Assembly (NCBI RefSeq): GCF_020215645.1
Contig: NZ_CP084058.1
Location: forward strand, 11,834,501-11,898,500
DNA length: 64,000 bases
From: Nonomuraea gerenzanensis
GTDB taxonomy: Bacteria > Actinomycetota > Actinomycetes > Streptosporangiales > Streptosporangiaceae
Direction of reading: 5' to 3'
How positions within the stretch are numbered: position 1 is the stretch's first letter; the number at the start of each line of letters is the position of its first letter. Made by a program: the position numbers and the translations under genes. This document shows positions 3,493 through 36,820 of the stretch, piece after piece. A model generated the notes under the pieces. It made no database searches and was not told the DNA's origin. It was given only the letters and a program-made list of their open reading frames with translations.

Positions 3493-3963
3493 GTGAACTT
3501 CACCGTTGCATACGAGCCCACCCCCGACGAAGTCGTCCGGGCGATGGAACGCGCCTTACGGCATCAACTCAGAGCCCTCTTCGTGCTCTTCCCAGCGTTC
3601 CTGGTGGTGTCCGGCATCGTCTTTCTCCTGCTCGACCTCTACAGCGTCGGCATCGGCATGCTGGTCGCGGCGGTCGTCGTCCCGTTCGTGGTGCCCTGGT
3701 CGCTGCGCCGGGCGGTGCGCAAGCAGGTGCCGCACATCTGCGTCCCCACCACGCTCCACGTGACCGACGAGGGATACGAGACACGCTCGGCGCAGCTCAC
3801 CATGGAGCTGCGCTGGTCGCTGTTCTCCCGCGTCATTCCGACCCCGGAGTTCTGGCTGTTCTTCATCAACAAACAGGCCAGCGGCTTCCTCCCCAGAAGC
3901 GCCTTCACCCCGGAACAACAAGCGCAGCTCGACGCCCGCCTGTCCGCCTTGACCAAGCCCTAG
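3493..3963 (+). CDS. YcxB-like membrane protein
   Basis: The product (156 aa) has two central membrane helices (about residues 28-48 and 52-70). They are followed by a soluble segment T-L-H-V-T-D-E-G-Y-E-T-R-S and a conserved-looking F-L-P-R-S-A-F-T stretch. This is the arrangement of the YcxB-like family, whose function is unknown. The GTG at 3493 follows a GAGAAGAGG ribosome site; the 44 upstream codons of the open frame do not look coding. Its stop overlaps the stop of the convergent methyltransferase in the palindrome CTAG. Confidence 0.75.
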   Translation: MNFTVAYEPTPDEVVRAMERALRHQLRALFVLFPAFLVVSGIVFLLLDLYSVGIGMLVAAVVVPFVVPWSLRRAVRKQVPHICVPTTLHVTDEGYETRSAQLTMELRWSLFSRVIPTPEFWLFFINKQASGFLPRSAFTPEQQAQLDARLSALTKP

Positions 3964-4586
3964 AGGGCGCGCCGCAACGTCAGCGACTGGAACCGGTCCT
4001 TGTTCTCGCCGACGGGGTGGAAGTCCACGATCTCGAAGAACTCACGCGCGAACTGCCGCAACCGCTCGTCGTCACGGAAGGAGAAGAACCGGGGAGGCTC
4101 ATGATGGTCCTCCTCGAACGTGCCTTCCCCCGTCAGGCCACCGCCGCCGTACACACCGAGAAAGAACAGCCCGCCGGGCCGCAGCACCGTGCGAATGGCG
4201 TCGAGCACCGCCGGGAGATCCCGGTCGGGCACATGCAGCAGGCAGTTGAACGCGTACACCGCGTCAAAGGACGCGGGCGCGAAATCGAGGCCCAGAAAAT
4301 CCATGACACGGGCGTCGAGGCCCTTCTCCCGGCAACGATTCACCATGGCGGGCGAAAGATCGACGGCGACGACCTCCAGGCCGTTCTCCTGGAAATAGAG
4401 GCTGTCCTGGCCGGTGCCGGCGCCGACCTCCAGCAGCCGCCCGCCCCCGTGCTCCCGCAACCGCTCCAGGAACGCCTCCCGCTCCGCCAGCTTCCACGAG
4501 CTCTTGCCGGCGGAGTCCCGCCGCTCCACGTCCCCGTCGTAGGCCGCGCGGAGAGGGCCGATCACCTCGTCGTAACGCGTACTCAT
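3960..4586 (-). CDS. class I SAM-dependent methyltransferase
   Basis: The protein (208 aa) has the SAM-binding glycine loop L-L-E-V-G-A-G-T-G-Q-D-S at about residue 50, V-V-A-V-D-L-S-P (motif II), F-D-A-V-Y-A-F-N-C-L-L-H-V-P (motif IV) and V-L-R-P-G-G-L-F-F-L-G-V. The substrate is unknown. The start at 4586 is the ATG beginning M-S-T-R-Y-D-E-V; the longer open frame upstream is antisense to the AraC gene. It is divergent from that regulator with 63 bp between starts. Confidence 0.85.
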   Translation of the reverse strand: MSTRYDEVIGPLRAAYDGDVERRDSAGKSSWKLAEREAFLERLREHGGGRLLEVGAGTGQDSLYFQENGLEVVAVDLSPAMVNRCREKGLDARVMDFLGLDFAPASFDAVYAFNCLLHVPDRDLPAVLDAIRTVLRPGGLFFLGVYGGGGLTGEGTFEEDHHEPPRFFSFRDDERLRQFAREFFEIVDFHPVGENKDRFQSLTLRRAL

Positions 4587-4649
4587 CCCGCCATCATGCC
4601 GAACCCGGCGGCCTGGCGGCGCAGCCGCGCATCGGTGATGCTGTGATGC

Positions 4650-5483
4650 GTGGAGTACGTGTCCCTGGTGCCGCGACCGCCGCTCGACGAGCTGATCGAC
4701 GACCTCTACTACCTGGCGGGCACCCCGCCGTACCCCATGCTGATGTTGCCGCCGATGCCGTCGGCGCTGCTCGTCCTCAACCTCGGGGCGCCGTTCCGCA
4801 TCCGTACCGGCGCCGAGACGAGCGGCTACGCCGACGGCTGCGTCATCACCACGCCCACCCGCGCCTTCGAGTTCGGCTACCCGCCGGGAACCCGCTCCGT
4901 CGGCGTGCACTTCAAGCCGTGGGGCCTGGCGCCGTTCGTGGGGATGCCCGCGGCCGAGCTGCGCGACCGGCCGGTGGCGGTGGAGCAGGTCTGGGGCCGC
5001 GCCGCCGCCGCCACGCTGCGCGACCGCCTGGCCATGGCGTCCGGACCGCACGAGATGCTCACGCTGCTGGAGGCCGAGCTGACCCGCCGGCTCAGCGAGA
5101 CCGCCGGCCTGGCGCTGGTCCGCCACACGAGCGGCGTGATCGCCGCGGCCAGGGGCACGGTGCCGATCCGCGACCTGAGCATGGCGGCCGGCGTCAGCAC
5201 CACCCACCTGGCCCAACGCTTCAGGGAGCTGATCGGCGTCACCCCGAAGCGGCTGGCCCGCACCTACCGCTTCGCCATCACCGTCCTGTCCATCGACCCC
5301 GCCGGCCCAGTCGACTGGACCGAGCTCGCCACTCGCGCCGGCTACTTCGACCAGGCCCACTTCGGCCACGAGTTCCGCACGTTCACCGGCCTCACACCGA
5401 CCCGCTACATCGACGTCCGCCGCCGGTTCCTGCGCGAACACCCCGGCCACGTGCTGGACGGCTGGCCGCTGCCGGCCGATTGA
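4650..5483 (+). CDS. AraC-family transcriptional regulator
   Basis: The protein (277 aa) has an N-terminal ligand-binding-like region resembling DUF6597. It includes F-G-Y-P-P-G-T-R-S-V-G-V-H-F-K-P-W-G near residue 85. The C-terminal AraC/XylS DNA-binding domain has two helix-turn-helix units, I-R-D-L-S-M-A-A-G-V-S-T-T-H-L and A-G-Y-F-D-Q-A-H-F-G-H-E-F. The GTG start at 4650 lies 63 bp from the divergent methyltransferase, a possible target. Effector unknown. Confidence 0.85.
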   Translation: MEYVSLVPRPPLDELIDDLYYLAGTPPYPMLMLPPMPSALLVLNLGAPFRIRTGAETSGYADGCVITTPTRAFEFGYPPGTRSVGVHFKPWGLAPFVGMPAAELRDRPVAVEQVWGRAAAATLRDRLAMASGPHEMLTLLEAELTRRLSETAGLALVRHTSGVIAAARGTVPIRDLSMAAGVSTTHLAQRFRELIGVTPKRLARTYRFAITVLSIDPAGPVDWTELATRAGYFDQAHFGHEFRTFTGLTPTRYIDVRRRFLREHPGHVLDGWPLPAD

Positions 5484-5548
5484 TTTCTTACAAGTGTCGC
5501 AGCCCTCGACCCGCTAACTTGGGGCACCCCTGAGCAGAGGAGAGCCCC

Positions 5549-6130
5549 GTGGGCAAGGTGGTCATGTACAGCTCGGTGTCGGTGGACGGCTTCATCGCCG
5601 ACGACGACGACCTGCCCGGACCGCTGTTCGACTGGTTGTCCAGCGGTGACGTCCCGTTGGACGAGAGCGGCGGGCTGAAGGTGTCGCAGCCGTCCTACGA
5701 CTACACCCGGCCGTACTGGAACCAGATCGGCGTCACGATCGTCGGCCGCCACGTCTTCGACCTGACGGACGGCTGGGACGGCAAGCCGCCGGGCGGCATC
5801 GATCACGTGGTCGTCGTGACGCACCGGCCGGCGCCCGACGGCTGGGACCCCGCGGCGCCGTTCCACTTCGTCGAAGGCATCGAGGCGGCCATGACCAAGG
5901 CGCAGGAGCTCGCCGGTGACCGCACGGTCGAGGTCGCCGCCGGCGACGTCGGCGGTCAGATGCTCGCCGCGGGCCTGGTCGACGAGGTGCGTATGGACGT
6001 CGTACCCGTCGTCTTCGGCTCCGGCAAGCGCTACTTCGGGTCGGTCCAGGCACAGCACCTGCTGGAGGACCCCGACGTGGTGATCCAGGGCAACCGGGTG
6101 CTCCACCTCCGCTACCGGGTACGCCGATGA
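5549..6130 (+). CDS. dihydrofolate reductase-family protein (RibD C-terminal type)
   Basis: The protein (193 aa) has the DHFR/RibD_C fold: V-V-M-Y-S-S-V-S-V-D-G-F-I-A at the N-terminus, T-I-V-G-R-H-V-F-D in the middle, A-A-G-D-V-G-G-Q-M-L for NADPH binding and V-D-E-V-R-M-D-V-V-P-V-V-F-G-S-G near the C-terminus. Stand-alone proteins of this kind are common in actinomycetes and are usually NAD(P)H-dependent reductases of unknown substrate. The GTG start follows an AGGAGAG ribosome site at 5537-5543. It is a single-gene unit. Confidence 0.85.
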   Translation: MGKVVMYSSVSVDGFIADDDDLPGPLFDWLSSGDVPLDESGGLKVSQPSYDYTRPYWNQIGVTIVGRHVFDLTDGWDGKPPGGIDHVVVVTHRPAPDGWDPAAPFHFVEGIEAAMTKAQELAGDRTVEVAAGDVGGQMLAAGLVDEVRMDVVPVVFGSGKRYFGSVQAQHLLEDPDVVIQGNRVLHLRYRVRR

Positions 6131-10901: not shown

Positions 10902-11969
10902 TCAGGGACATACCTCTTTTTCATTGAGTAGCAACCCGAAACCGTCATAAACCTTCGCCACCTCGGTCGCGCACCGGTTGTTGACGACCTGGGCCACGCC
11001 TGGCTGCCTCTGGAGCCGGCTGGTCAACTCGCCCGCCGCGGCATCGTCCTCCAGCTTGATCCTGAACGATCGCGGCATGTCCCCCACCCGGGTCGCCTCC
11101 ATGAGCGTCTTGTTGTCCTTGAACGCCTCCTTGAAGTTCTCGTACGCGGCCGCCTCGTCCTCGAAGACGACCTCCTCCACCCCCGGTGATTTCTGGATCA
11201 GCTCCTGGACCGCCTTCACCTGGGCGGGTGTCGCGGCTCGCCCTTCCTTGACCAGCTTGGTGTCGCCTTCCTTGTCGACGAGCTTCCCGCCGCATGCGGA
11301 GACGGCGCTTGCTGCCTTGCACAGGAAGACGCTGACGTCCCACTTCTGGCGCTCTTGCACCGCCGCCTGGGTGTAGGGGCTCGAAGCGTGATCGATGACA
11401 GTCAGCACCCCGGCCACCCCATGGAACGCCGCCATCACCTGCCGGCGGTCGGCCCCCTCCCGCAGCTTGAGCCGGTACGACGACGGCATGTCCGCGCTCT
11501 TGACCTCCTCCAGCACGGCCTGATTGTGGGCGAACCGCTCGCGGAAGTCGTCGTAGGCGACGGCCTGGCTCACCCACTGGCCGGCGGCGATCTGCTCGGT
11601 CTGCTCCAACAGCACCTGCTCGATCGCCTGGCGCTGCTCCGAGCTCACCGCCCCCTCGCAACGCGACTCCTTCGCCACGGTCGCCGTACACAGGAACACG
11701 GTCATGTCCGCGTCGTCCCGCCCGAACACCTCCGCGGCCGTCGCCGCCGTCACCCGATCCTGGTCGCCGGCTCCACCCGCGCCGCCGCCCACCAGCACGG
11801 CGGTCGCCGACCCCACGACCACCACGGCCGCCGCCGCTGTCAGCATCCGGAGATCCACCCGGAACCGCCTGCGCTCCGCCACCCGCAAGGGCCGCAGTGT
11901 GCTCGCGTCCACCGTCGCCCCCGCCTCGGCGAGAGCCTCCCGCAGTCTGTCTTCCACCGGGCTGCTCAT
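10902..11969 (-). CDS. membrane protein with two FtsX extracellular-domain-like modules, possible anti-sigma or stress sensor
   Basis: A 355 aa protein. Residues 1-40 form a cytoplasmic segment starting M-S-S-P-V-E-D-R-L-R-E-A-L. One membrane helix follows at about 43-66. Outside lie two homologous modules. Module 1 starts M-T-V-F-L-C-T-A and module 2 starts V-S-V-F-L-C-K-A. Both contain a second Cys, an A-x-x-x-F-(K/R)-E-x-F motif, a D-M-P-x-S-(Y/F)-R-(L/I)-K-L motif and a final G-V-x-x-V. These are the landmarks of the FtsX extracellular domain, which in FtsEX recruits peptidoglycan hydrolases. Here there are no permease helices. The start overlaps the stop of the upstream ECF sigma gene (ATGA), so the two are made together. 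An anti-sigma role is inferred from that coupling and topology; no canonical zinc anti-sigma motif is present. Confidence 0.75.
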   Translation of the reverse strand: MSSPVEDRLREALAEAGATVDASTLRPLRVAERRRFRVDLRMLTAAAAVVVVGSATAVLVGGGAGGAGDQDRVTAATAAEVFGRDDADMTVFLCTATVAKESRCEGAVSSEQRQAIEQVLLEQTEQIAAGQWVSQAVAYDDFRERFAHNQAVLEEVKSADMPSSYRLKLREGADRRQVMAAFHGVAGVLTVIDHASSPYTQAAVQERQKWDVSVFLCKAASAVSACGGKLVDKEGDTKLVKEGRAATPAQVKAVQELIQKSPGVEEVVFEDEAAAYENFKEAFKDNKTLMEATRVGDMPRSFRIKLEDDAAAGELTSRLQRQPGVAQVVNNRCATEVAKVYDGFGLLLNEKEVCP

Positions 11970-12493
11970 GAATCCTCCCCAAGCGCTCTGGCGAGGGCCG
12001 CCAGCCCTCGCGCGATCGTCGATCTGGCCGTGCTGGCGCTGATCCGCATCGTGTCGGCGATCTCCTGGTCGGCGAGATCGAAGTAGTAACGCAGGGTCAG
12101 CGCCTCGCGCTGCCTGCGCGGCAGCCCGCGCAGCGCGAGCAGGACCTCGCGCCGCTCCTCACCCATCAGCACGGCGCTCTCCGCCGACCAGACCGGCGGC
12201 TCGTACGGCACCGCCCGTTTGAACACCGTCGCCCGCCTGCGCAGCACCGACCGGCATCCGTTGAGCACCGCCGAGCGCACATACGTCAGCATCTTGTCGG
12301 CGTCGCGCAGCCTGGCCCGGCCAGCGTGCGTGCGCTCGAAGGCCTCCTGCACGACGTCTTCGGCGGTGGCCTGGTCGCCGACCATGAGGAGGGCCAGGCG
12401 CACCAGGCCGACGTGGTGCTCGGCGAAGATCGACGCCACGTCGACCCGTTGCCGTGCCAGGGCTTCTTGCTGGGTGAGTAGTTCGACTTCCAC
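11966..12493 (-). CDS. SigE-family ECF sigma factor
   Basis: The protein (175 aa) has region 2 (F-A-E-H-H-V-G-L-V-R-L-A-L-L-M-V-G-D, then A-E-D-V-V-Q-E-A-F-E) and region 4 (L-R-G-L-P-R-R-Q-R-E-A-L-T-L-R-Y-Y, then D-Q-E-I-A-D-T-M-R-I-S). It belongs to the actinobacterial SigE/SigM-like group that directs RNA polymerase to envelope or stress genes. It is first in a two-gene unit with the FtsX-like membrane protein, whose start overlaps its stop by 4 bp. Confidence 0.9.
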   Translation of the reverse strand: MEVELLTQQEALARQRVDVASIFAEHHVGLVRLALLMVGDQATAEDVVQEAFERTHAGRARLRDADKMLTYVRSAVLNGCRSVLRRRATVFKRAVPYEPPVWSAESAVLMGEERREVLLALRGLPRRQREALTLRYYFDLADQEIADTMRISASTARSTIARGLAALARALGEDS

Positions 12494-12982
12494 GTATCAG
12501 AGACGTTTCAGGGTCTCGTCTGCTGCTTCGGGCACTGGGCTATCTTCTGCCTTGCGCCGCATCCGTTCACGGCCATGTCCACAGGCTGTGGATAACCGCC
12601 GGGGGTGCCATCGGGCGCCCGGGCGCCTCGCGCGTCAGTGCGGGTGGGTGGCAGCTGATCGCGAGGCCTGACGCAGCGCCGGCACGCCCCTCGCACATGG
12701 TCCGGTGGCGGGCCGCACGCAGTCCGGAGGCGGGCCGGTGGCGGTACACACACGCACCGGAGGCGAGCCGCACGCGAGCAGGAGGCGGACCGGACGCGGA
12801 CCGCACAGGGCCAGAGACGCGGACCGCACAAGGCCAGAGACGCGAACCGCACAGGGCCGAACGCGAACCGCAGCACAAGGCCGGTCGAGAGCTAGAGGCG
12901 AACCGAAGGCGAGCGCGCCACATCAGGCGCCATCACGTCACAGCAAAACACGCCGCCCACCGAACCCAGCCCCCGAGACCAC
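12494..12982. other. gene-free, repeat-bearing stretch
   Basis: No convincing gene is seen. Open frames here are low-complexity (Arg/Ala/Pro) on both strands. Between about 12797 and 12865 a 23-24 bp unit (core GCGGACCGCACAAGGCCAGA) occurs about three times, decaying rightwards; looser copies of GGCGGGCC and GCACGC motifs lie before it. The promoter of the ECF sigma gene should be at the left end. Confidence 0.6.
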
Positions 12983-35072: not shown

Positions 35073-35615
35073 GTGGACGATCCCGAAGAACGATTCACCG
35101 ACCTCTACGACCGGCACTACCGCAACGTGCTGGGCTACGCCCTGCTGCGGGCCGACCGGGACGTGGCCGAGGACGTGTCGAGCGAGACGTTCCTCGTGGC
35201 CTGGCGGCGGCTGGCCGACCTGCCGGAGCCGCCGCTGCCCTGGCTGCTCGGGGTGGCGCGCAACCTGCTGGCCAAGCAGCGCGACTCGCGCCACCGGCGG
35301 CAGGCCCTGGTCGATCGCATCGCCGCGCTGACCACCGCCCGCGACCACGAGGCGTGGGACGTGGCCGAGCACGTCGTCGACAGGGAGACCGCCCTGGCCG
35401 CGCTCTGCGCGCTGCCGGAGCAGGACGTGGAGGCGATGGTCTTCGCCACCTGGTACGGGCTGCCGCCCGAGCAGGCGGCCGGCGTCATGGGCTGCTCGGT
35501 GCGCACGTACAACGTCCGGTTGCACCGCGCCCGCAAGCGGCTGGCCCGCGCGCTGAGCCTCGGCGGCGGCCCGCGTCCGCGACTGCTCGACACACCCTTG
35601 GAGGACCCCCGATGA
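35073..35615 (+). CDS. ECF sigma factor
   Basis: The protein (180 aa) has region 2 (F-T-D-L-Y-D-R-H-Y-R-N-V-L-G-Y-A-L-L-R and A-E-D-V-S-S-E-T-F-L-V-A-W-R-R-L) and region 4 (L-C-A-L-P-E-Q-D-V-E-A-M-V-F-A-T-W-Y-G-L, then A-A-G-V-M-G-C-S-V-R-T-Y-N-V-R-L-H-R-A-R-K). The GTG at 35073 follows a GGAGGG site. Its stop overlaps the next start (ATGA). It is the actinobacterial ECF type whose partner is a CU044_5270-family membrane protein; that protein may act as the anti-sigma. Confidence 0.9.
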   Translation: MDDPEERFTDLYDRHYRNVLGYALLRADRDVAEDVSSETFLVAWRRLADLPEPPLPWLLGVARNLLAKQRDSRHRRQALVDRIAALTTARDHEAWDVAEHVVDRETALAALCALPEQDVEAMVFATWYGLPPEQAAGVMGCSVRTYNVRLHRARKRLARALSLGGGPRPRLLDTPLEDPR

Positions 35616-36820
35616 CTGACCGTACGTTCGCCAGGCTCAAGCCCGAAGGGCTGGACGAGCTCGCGGAGGACGGTTACCGGCGACGCCGCGCGGCCGACCT
35701 GGCCCGCGCCTTCGCCACCCCGCGCACCTTCGCCGCCCCGCGCGCCTTCGCCACCCCGCGCGCCCACCCCGGGTCCACGCACCCGCGCCTGCGCCGGCGG
35801 CGCCCGTTCGTCCTGGCGGCGGGCACCGTCGCGGCCGGGCTCGCGGCCGTCGCGGCCACCTTCACGGCCACCTTCGTGGTCACCGGTGACCCCGCGCCCC
35901 GCCAGGCCCCGCCGTCCGCCCGGCCGGTGCTGGATGCGCGCTCGTTCCTGCTGGCCGCCGCCACAACCGCGCGCCGCGAGCCCGCCGAATCGGGCCGCTA
36001 CTGGTACGTCAACGAGCGCGTGCTGCAGAAGGTGCACGTCGCGCCCGAGGAGTACGCGGCCGAGATCAAGAAGCTGGCCGCGACGTTCGAGCAGCGGGAA
36101 CGGGAGCTCAAGGGCGACCTGAGGCGGCTCGAAGCGGCACGCGAGGAGTTCGAGCAGCAGGTCGGCGAGCTGAAGAGGCGCGAGCTGCCGTACACGGCCT
36201 ACGCGGCCGACACCACCGAGAGCTGGCGGGCCATGCGTCCCGGCGAGGCCGGCCGCAGCGTGCGCGGGCAGGACGTGGCGGTCACGTTCGGCTCCCCGCA
36301 GGACGAGGCCGATTGGCGCGCGGCCGGCTCGCCCGCGCTGGTGGAGCGGGGGAAGCGGACGCACGAGGACAACACCCCCCGGGTGTTGTCCATCGACAAC
36401 CCCGGCCTGACCCTCCAGAACGTCTCCGCGCTGCCCACCGGCAAGGACGAGCTCAAGCGACGCCTGGACGAGCTGTGGCGGCGCAGCCCCAACACGGCGG
36501 GCGCCGACAAGGCCGGCTACCTGTGGCAGACAGGCGTGGACCTGATGACCGCGCCGATCAGGCCCGGCACCCGCTCCGCCCTCTACCAGGTGCTGGCCGA
36601 CCAGCCGGGCATCACCGCCCAGGGCGAGGTCACGGACGCGCTGGGGCGCGCGGGGGTCGCCCTGTCCTCGTCCACGGCCGACGGGGTCTCCTTCCGGCTC
36701 GTCATCGACCCGGAGACGGCCGAGTTGCTGGAGTACGACGTGGCGGATCAAGGGGTGACGCAGCTGCGGGTGGCGCTGGCCGGCATGGGCTTCACCGACG
36801 AGCTGGGCCAGCGGCCCTGA
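35612..36820 (+). CDS. CU044_5270-family membrane protein, possible anti-sigma partner
   Basis: A 402 aa protein. The cytoplasmic N-terminus (about 60 aa) carries a short repeat, F-A-T-P-R-T-F-A-A-P-R-A-F-A-T-P-R-A. One membrane helix follows at about 68-88. The large external domain has Y-W-Y-V-N-E-R-V-L-Q-K-V near residue 130, a long charged helix (E-Q-R-E-R-E-L-K-G-D-L-R-R-L-E-A-A-R-E) and a C-terminal beta-rich part. This is the CU044_5270 pattern. It is translationally coupled to the ECF sigma gene, so it probably controls it, but no experimental function is known to me. Confidence 0.8.
   Translation: MTDRTFARLKPEGLDELAEDGYRRRRAADLARAFATPRTFAAPRAFATPRAHPGSTHPRLRRRRPFVLAAGTVAAGLAAVAATFTATFVVTGDPAPRQAPPSARPVLDARSFLLAAATTARREPAESGRYWYVNERVLQKVHVAPEEYAAEIKKLAATFEQRERELKGDLRRLEAAREEFEQQVGELKRRELPYTAYAADTTESWRAMRPGEAGRSVRGQDVAVTFGSPQDEADWRAAGSPALVERGKRTHEDNTPRVLSIDNPGLTLQNVSALPTGKDELKRRLDELWRRSPNTAGADKAGYLWQTGVDLMTAPIRPGTRSALYQVLADQPGITAQGEVTDALGRAGVALSSSTADGVSFRLVIDPETAELLEYDVADQGVTQLRVALAGMGFTDELGQRP

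Follow-up and report, generated by a model that had tools for sequence, protein, structure and literature searches.

A conserved ECF sigma factor gene coupled to a membrane protein with FtsX-type ectodomains in Nonomuraea and related genera

The 64,000 nucleotides analysed here (the window: NCBI RefSeq assembly GCF_020215645.1, contig NZ_CP084058.1, positions 11,834,501 to 11,898,500) come from Nonomuraea gerenzanensis, whose genus belongs to the Streptosporangiaceae. They carry a gene for an extracytoplasmic function (ECF) sigma factor followed by a gene for a membrane protein, hereafter the sensor, the outer part of which is made of two FtsX ectodomain modules (Table 1). We showed that an FtsX ectodomain forming the outer part of an ECF sigma partner is a real and conserved arrangement, apparently undescribed so far. 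The genes on the minus strand are, in order, topA, tmk (an MFS fusion), holB, the sigma gene, the sensor gene and ricT. Pfam recognises the neighbours as ricT/PSP1, holB, the MFS-tmk fusion and topA, in line with the placement of the pair within the tmk-holB-ricT block by a first-pass annotation made from the sequence alone. The coordinates of the open reading frames (ORFs) also agree with its description of a SigE-type sigma gene overlapping by 4 bp (11966-11969) the gene of a one-helix protein, the sensor start lying inside the sigma stop.

Table 1. Features of the sigma-sensor pair in the window.
Feature	Position	Strand	Description and basis
ECF sigma factor gene	11966..12493	-	175 aa, GTG start, regions 2 and 4; Pfam and NCBIfam
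Sensor gene	10902..11969	-	355 aa, ATG start; tail, one helix and two FtsX_ECD modules; ORF, PF18075, model mc9a468732649
Cytoplasmic tail, residues 1-41	11847..11969	-	Column conservation, helix predicted at 4-15; proposed to bind the sigma factor
Single transmembrane helix, residues 42-60	11790..11846	-	Hydropathy peak 2.3
FtsX_ECD module 1, residues ~87-195	11385..11711	-	PF18075, 43.2 bits (own-genome search); model
FtsX_ECD module 2, residues ~209-332	10974..11345	-	Same residue as in the genome's own FtsX at 60 of 109 positions compared
Promoter-like block AGCAGCAG-N14-CGTCTC	12500..12527	-	Conserved; 6 nt ahead of the GTG start

The first-pass annotation had described two FtsX ectodomain-like modules with shared motifs, and proposed to compare them with FtsX by hidden Markov model (HMM) and by structure. 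Both comparisons support the description. The sensor matches PF18075 (FtsX_ECD) in two stretches with 105.9 bits, for a cut-off of 23.5 (E = 1.7e-30), and its translation has V-F-L-C at residues 91-94 and 214-217 and D-M-P-x-S-(Y/F)-R-(L/I)-K-L in both modules. The fold of the predicted model mc9a468732649 is likewise that of an FtsX ectodomain, with a predicted local distance difference test score of 93-98 per ten-residue block in module 1, up to residue 190. The single membrane helix that had been claimed is the only hydrophobic stretch, as predicted by hydropathy alone. The sensor is not FtsX itself, because it reaches just 124.1 of the 250 bits of the curated cut-off of FtsX_actino (NF038346) and a Pfam scan up to an E-value of 1 gives no match to the permease domain PF02687. 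The real ftsX of the genome lies elsewhere, between ftsE and smpB (prfB-ftsE-ftsX-smpB, names read from translations). Relatives of the sensor are also named permease-like cell division protein FtsX while having no permease part, and a single-module one (P0087) scores 70 of the 250 bits. Many database entries under this name are thus not FtsX.

The sigma protein has regions 2 (PF04542, Sigma70_r2) and 4 (PF08281, r4_2), both over the Pfam cut-offs, and passes TIGR02937 (66.4 bits, cut-off 42.9). Its best NCBIfam model is TIGR02983 (SigE-fam_strep), which bears out the SigE-type label in kind, although its score of 131.1 bits stays just below the curated cut-off of 141.55. The SigE-family model matches the genome 118 times at E <= 0.001, some of these matches being pieces of one gene, and 15 exceed the curated cut-off. 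In about 15 of 30 inspected SigE-family loci of this genome, the next gene codes for a one-helix protein with a short tail.

The pair is widespread in the genus and beyond. Among the best 7995 candidates scored we found at least 86 homologous proteins; the named ones are nearly all from Nonomuraea, mostly annotated as permease-like cell division protein FtsX. The named nearest kin of this genome are Nonomuraea too, with N. candida best at 73% protein identity. A single-module sensor used as query gave 64 homologues from Streptosporangium, Sphaerisporangium, Microbispora and Nonomuraea, the last rows of which are the second type described below or FtsX. A pair confined to the species of the window is therefore ruled out. 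We then compared 40 wider loci picked among the FtsX_ECD matches, calling an ectodomain gene sigma-coupled when the open frame leading into it contains the end of a sigma ORF or directly follows it. This holds for 35 genes; with the start codon closest to the sigma stop, every one of the 35 overlaps the sigma gene by exactly 4 bp. Between holB and ricT, on one strand, stand 32 of them; for L071, L074 and L076, neither holB nor ricT was found in the stretch compared. The survey of such pairs that had been suggested thus shows a layout kept across genera, which together with the number of homologues goes far past what chance would give. One of the 35, L053, is a decayed pair with a shortened sigma and a sensor lacking its tail. 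This locus still has the promoter-like block and a secreted-looking paralogue. In 394 genomes of the class, the listed matches that reach into the tail are all from the family of the window. No listed match from outside this family begins before residue 75 (nearly all begin at 81-84), and these matches fit FtsX, which rules out tailed ectodomain proteins throughout the class within this sample and among these matches. Two apparent sigma-sensor fusions were not used as evidence for coupling: by eye, P0081 is a frame-shifted, decayed copy and P0121 a deletion joining sigma region 2 to the sensor.

The compared loci also contain 13 ectodomain genes without a sigma gene. Seven of them (L043, L044, L047, L048, L049, L051 and L053), all with a double FtsX_ECD, lie between holB and the sigma gene, upstream of the latter in the same Nonomuraea cluster, and are tail-less and mostly signal-peptide-like. 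The others are L052, L057, L058, L066, L067 and L078. A tail HMM finds no tail remnant in any of the 13 (best E-value 0.38). By eye, most of 11 inspected proteins have a signal-peptide-like start, and hydropathy suggests that L067 is membrane-anchored. The secreted-looking proteins could be soluble partners or competitors of the sensor.

A second pairing was found in five loci (L109-L113), where the gene of a P0149-type protein, with a different tail and one FtsX_ECD, overlaps a sigma gene by 4 bp in 5 of 5 cases. This type-2 sigma is remote from the one in the window (about 23 bits by phmmer; the L113 sigma, missed by this search, is 95% identical to that of L109). The FtsX ectodomain has therefore been attached to a second sigma family. 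The window itself has, at 35073-36820 on the plus strand, an ECF sigma 59% identical to the type-2 sigma, with a partner gene overlapping by 4 bp. The outer part of this partner is of the CU044_5270 family (113.2 bits, cut-off 100) instead of FtsX_ECD; BLASTP finds no significant match between it and the type-2 partner, and a tail motif common to the two can be seen by eye. Different outer parts, FtsX_ECD and CU044_5270, thus occur on one sigma family.

How do these ectodomains relate to FtsX? In a maximum-likelihood tree of 102 ectodomains, made on only 117 columns, 19 of 20 FtsX domains stand apart from the sensor side (support 98/92). The exceptions are one FtsX (L140) grouped with the sensors at weak support (81/17) and one long-branched domain of the sigma-less L066 grouped with FtsX. 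Nearly all domains of sigma-less proteins fall with the sensor modules, in two separate double-ectodomain groups, and the type-2 ectodomain has no firm place, with FtsX or the first sensor as candidate sources. Module 2 is closer to FtsX than module 1: with lower-lobe limits that we chose from the alignment, it is identical to the host FtsX at 26 of 40 positions in the lobe and 34 of 69 elsewhere, module 1 at 15 of 40 and 17 of 68. The ratio of mean identity to FtsX in the lower lobe over the rest is 1.16 among FtsX, 1.52 for module 1, 1.55 for module 2, 1.40 for single-module sensors and 1.56 and 1.69 for secreted-looking proteins, while mean identity to FtsX outside the lobe is down to 27-35%. 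The same ratio within classes is 1.30 for module 1, 1.27 for module 2, 1.22 and 1.18 for secreted-looking and 1.05 for type-2 domains. Judging from these alignments, the ligand-binding lobe of FtsX is selectively retained in module 1, module 2, single-module and secreted forms. According to PMC10694151, lower-lobe residues F61, F110, F113 and F122 of Mycobacterium tuberculosis FtsX bind RipC. F61 is retained in 12 of 16 first modules, 16 of 16 second modules and 18 of 20 single-module sensors, and position 110 is aromatic in 14 of 16, 16 of 16 and 10 of 20, respectively. Positions 113 and 122 are mostly aliphatic or methionine in sensors, and likewise in 20 FtsX domains of the host's family, so that the docking face of the sensor looks like that of FtsX in its own family.

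The tail is the best-conserved part of the sensor. In an alignment of 75 rows (including the sensor of the window and leaving out P0082, P0083 and P0085), 17 of the 28 columns for tail residues 1-28 are conserved at 90% or more, whereas module 1 has 12 such columns among 109 and module 2 has 21 among 124. Residues 4-15 form a helix in the predicted model, and such a short helical tail would presumably suit a class II anti-sigma factor. We built a tail HMM from 34 sensors, leaving L053 out. The search covered 3440 possible N-termini, drawn from 30 of this genome's sigma loci and from the five type-2 loci. Besides the sensor itself the HMM matches L096 (2.2e-9) and L094 (9e-4), at the exact starts of one-helix partners of related SigE-family sigmas. 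These two partners have no Pfam match, and the partner of another close sigma, L083, no match to the tail HMM. The sigma-coupled tail thus carries different outer parts. Searching PDB sequences with two partner proteins that lack FtsX_ECD yielded no match or only weak ones at chance level, and we therefore claim no fold for them. Across 31 loci the correlation of sigma with tail distances is 0.72, but that of sigma with holB is 0.82 and that of sigma with ricT 0.72. The partial correlation of sigma and tail given ricT is 0.45, with none of 1000 permutations as high. This lends weak support to the coupling of sigma and sensor.

Upstream of the sigma gene, the block AGCAGCAG-N14-CGTCTC is kept in 12 compared Nonomuraea loci, while the DNA before it differs. 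A regular expression for it matches 22 of the 35 sigma-coupled loci, with a spacer of 14 in 21; the rest of the 40 loci contains a single further match. Across 53 Nonomuraea genomes the exact pattern has 51 sites and its reversed-pattern control 19, and a comparison of coordinates by eye places 33 of the 51 shortly ahead of FtsX_ECD matches of the sensor-locus kind. The block reads as a putative ECF promoter of a possibly self-activated operon, whose mRNA is probably leaderless, since the GTG start follows so closely. The looser GCAGCAG-N12..15-CGTCTC has 20 sites in the genome, an excess over the 8 of its reversed-pattern control, but the 14-nt spacer is kept at only two of them, namely the operon's own and L159, which has no clear gene link in the surrounding ORFs. 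Nothing was drawn from a scan with three mismatches (453 sites, control 369), as the known exact site was not among the matches listed.

We slightly favour the view that the two proteins form a sigma/anti-sigma-like pair in which the outer FtsX_ECD copies bind an FtsX ligand and thereby control the sigma factor. In the resting state, the tail would keep the sigma factor at the membrane. The lobes of FtsX type on the outer side would bind an FtsX ligand, the simplest candidate being a peptidoglycan hydrolase or the coiled-coil part of one. When this ligand is bound or lost, the sensor would be altered or destroyed and release the sigma factor, which would then transcribe its own operon from a private promoter, as well as further targets. 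An anti-sigma-like action of the sensor is likely, and hydrolase sensing plausible; sigma binding and inhibition, the identity of the ligand, the direction of the switch, self-activation and the regulon are all steps that we infer. The first-pass annotation had proposed a borrowed FtsX ectodomain serving as a sigma-linked wall sensor: the ectodomain (by HMM and fold) and the dedicated sigma factor stand, whereas its reading of hydrolase status and its envelope-stress output go beyond what was observed.

Several results weigh against this view. Type-2 ectodomains have no extra retention of the lobe (ratio to FtsX of 1.17), and in single-module sensors conservation of the lobe within the class is barely above the rest (1.07). 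The four-phenylalanine site of M. tuberculosis includes F113 and F122, where sensors mostly have leucine or methionine, although FtsX proteins of the host's family do so too. Neither Pfam nor NCBIfam recognises an anti-sigma domain in the tail, and the partial correlation of sigma and tail given holB is small (0.24 in the 31 loci, with 9 of 1000 permutations as high). The promoter expression fails in 13 of the 35 sigma-coupled loci. The strict pattern has a single site in the genome, at its own operon, and thus names no other target there, and the looser scans of this genome are unusable for a regulon. Finally, no hydrolase gene adjoins the prfB-ftsE-ftsX-smpB operon of this genome to be named as ligand.

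In the strongest rival, which we find rather unlikely, the sensor is still anti-sigma-like, but its modules no longer recognise a hydrolase and have another ligand, for example an antibiotic, a piece of cell wall or one another. FtsX ancestry would then tell little about the signal. The separation of sensor ectodomains from most FtsX in the tree, the low identity outside the lower lobe and the other ectodomains borne by related tails fit this idea, but it leaves the selective retention of the FtsX ligand lobe across four forms to be explained. It is improbable that the membrane protein is instead the effector, an anchored competitor of FtsX that captures hydrolases and whose expression the sigma factor merely controls. 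Secreted-looking double-ectodomain paralogues, with neither tail nor sigma, do imply that the ectodomain is useful by itself, and RsiV both senses and inhibits lysozyme, according to PMC5014341. Yet an effector would not need the tail, which is the best-conserved part and is common to other sigma partners. That an ECF sigma gene merely happens to neighbour a truncated copy of ftsX, without any functional tie between the two, is very improbable and largely refuted by the conserved layout: the decay of L053 and the Nonomuraea genomes with no full-length match among the matches listed (e.g. G091, G119, G183) would suit it, but 35 of 35 exact overlaps in several genera, the conserved promoter-like block and the second sigma-ectodomain pairing do not.

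Relative to FtsX of FtsEX (M. tuberculosis ectodomain, PDB 4n8n and 8idb), the sensor shares the ectodomain sequence, fold, V-F-L motif and lower-lobe aromatics. Unlike it, the sensor has no permease domain, a single helix with a sigma-coupled tail, tandem modules and no ftsE alongside. The SigE-family (TIGR02983) pairs of the same genome resemble it in sigma family, 4-bp overlap, short tail and single helix; the tail is homologous in L096 and L094, but the ectodomains (L096, L094, L083) match no Pfam model. The ectodomain of RsiV, partner of sigma V in Bacillus, differs from FtsX_ECD, and RsgI and sigma I of Clostridium thermocellum differ from our pair in sigma, tail and modules. RsgI is reported to join one anti-sigma tail to exchangeable extracellular sensor modules, as the tail of the sensor family would. 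PMC5014341 presents RsiV as a lysozyme receptor, and the logic may be alike, an ectodomain binding a wall hydrolase to free an ECF sigma, except that the ligand proposed here would be the cell's own hydrolase. Anti-sigma classes I-III are described in PMC8103513. The claim that no system of this kind had been described held up in our reach of the literature, which took in few subscription papers: among the papers listed for FtsX with sigma or anti-sigma factors, for FtsX_ECD/PF18075 and for related names, none describes one. The FtsX passages of PMC7775120, PMC6344877, PMC3073932 and PMC7985256 contain no sigma-FtsX_ECD pair, nor does PMC7690785, where FtsX is in the reference list only.

To our knowledge, it is not settled how bacteria monitor what their own wall hydrolases are doing. 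A sigma-linked protein with the hydrolase-docking domain of FtsEX would make such sensing directly testable, with the promoter-like block as a candidate reporter. One might speculate, tentatively, that FtsX_ECD is a free-standing hydrolase-reading module in the Nonomuraea/Streptosporangium family, set on at least two ECF sigma families to sense the cell's own wall hydrolases, doubled in Nonomuraea and accompanied by secreted two-module proteins, encoded beside the sensor, that compete in soluble form for the same ligand, so that division-type hydrolase activity feeds back on transcription.

In another genus, holB and ricT of locus L059 enclose two consecutive sigma pairs. The additional pair, at 3835-6065 on the plus strand, consists of a SigE-type sigma and a partner in which a long ectodomain of no assigned family follows a tail (MKDITDRLRDATRAVGETI) that looks similar to that of the sensor.
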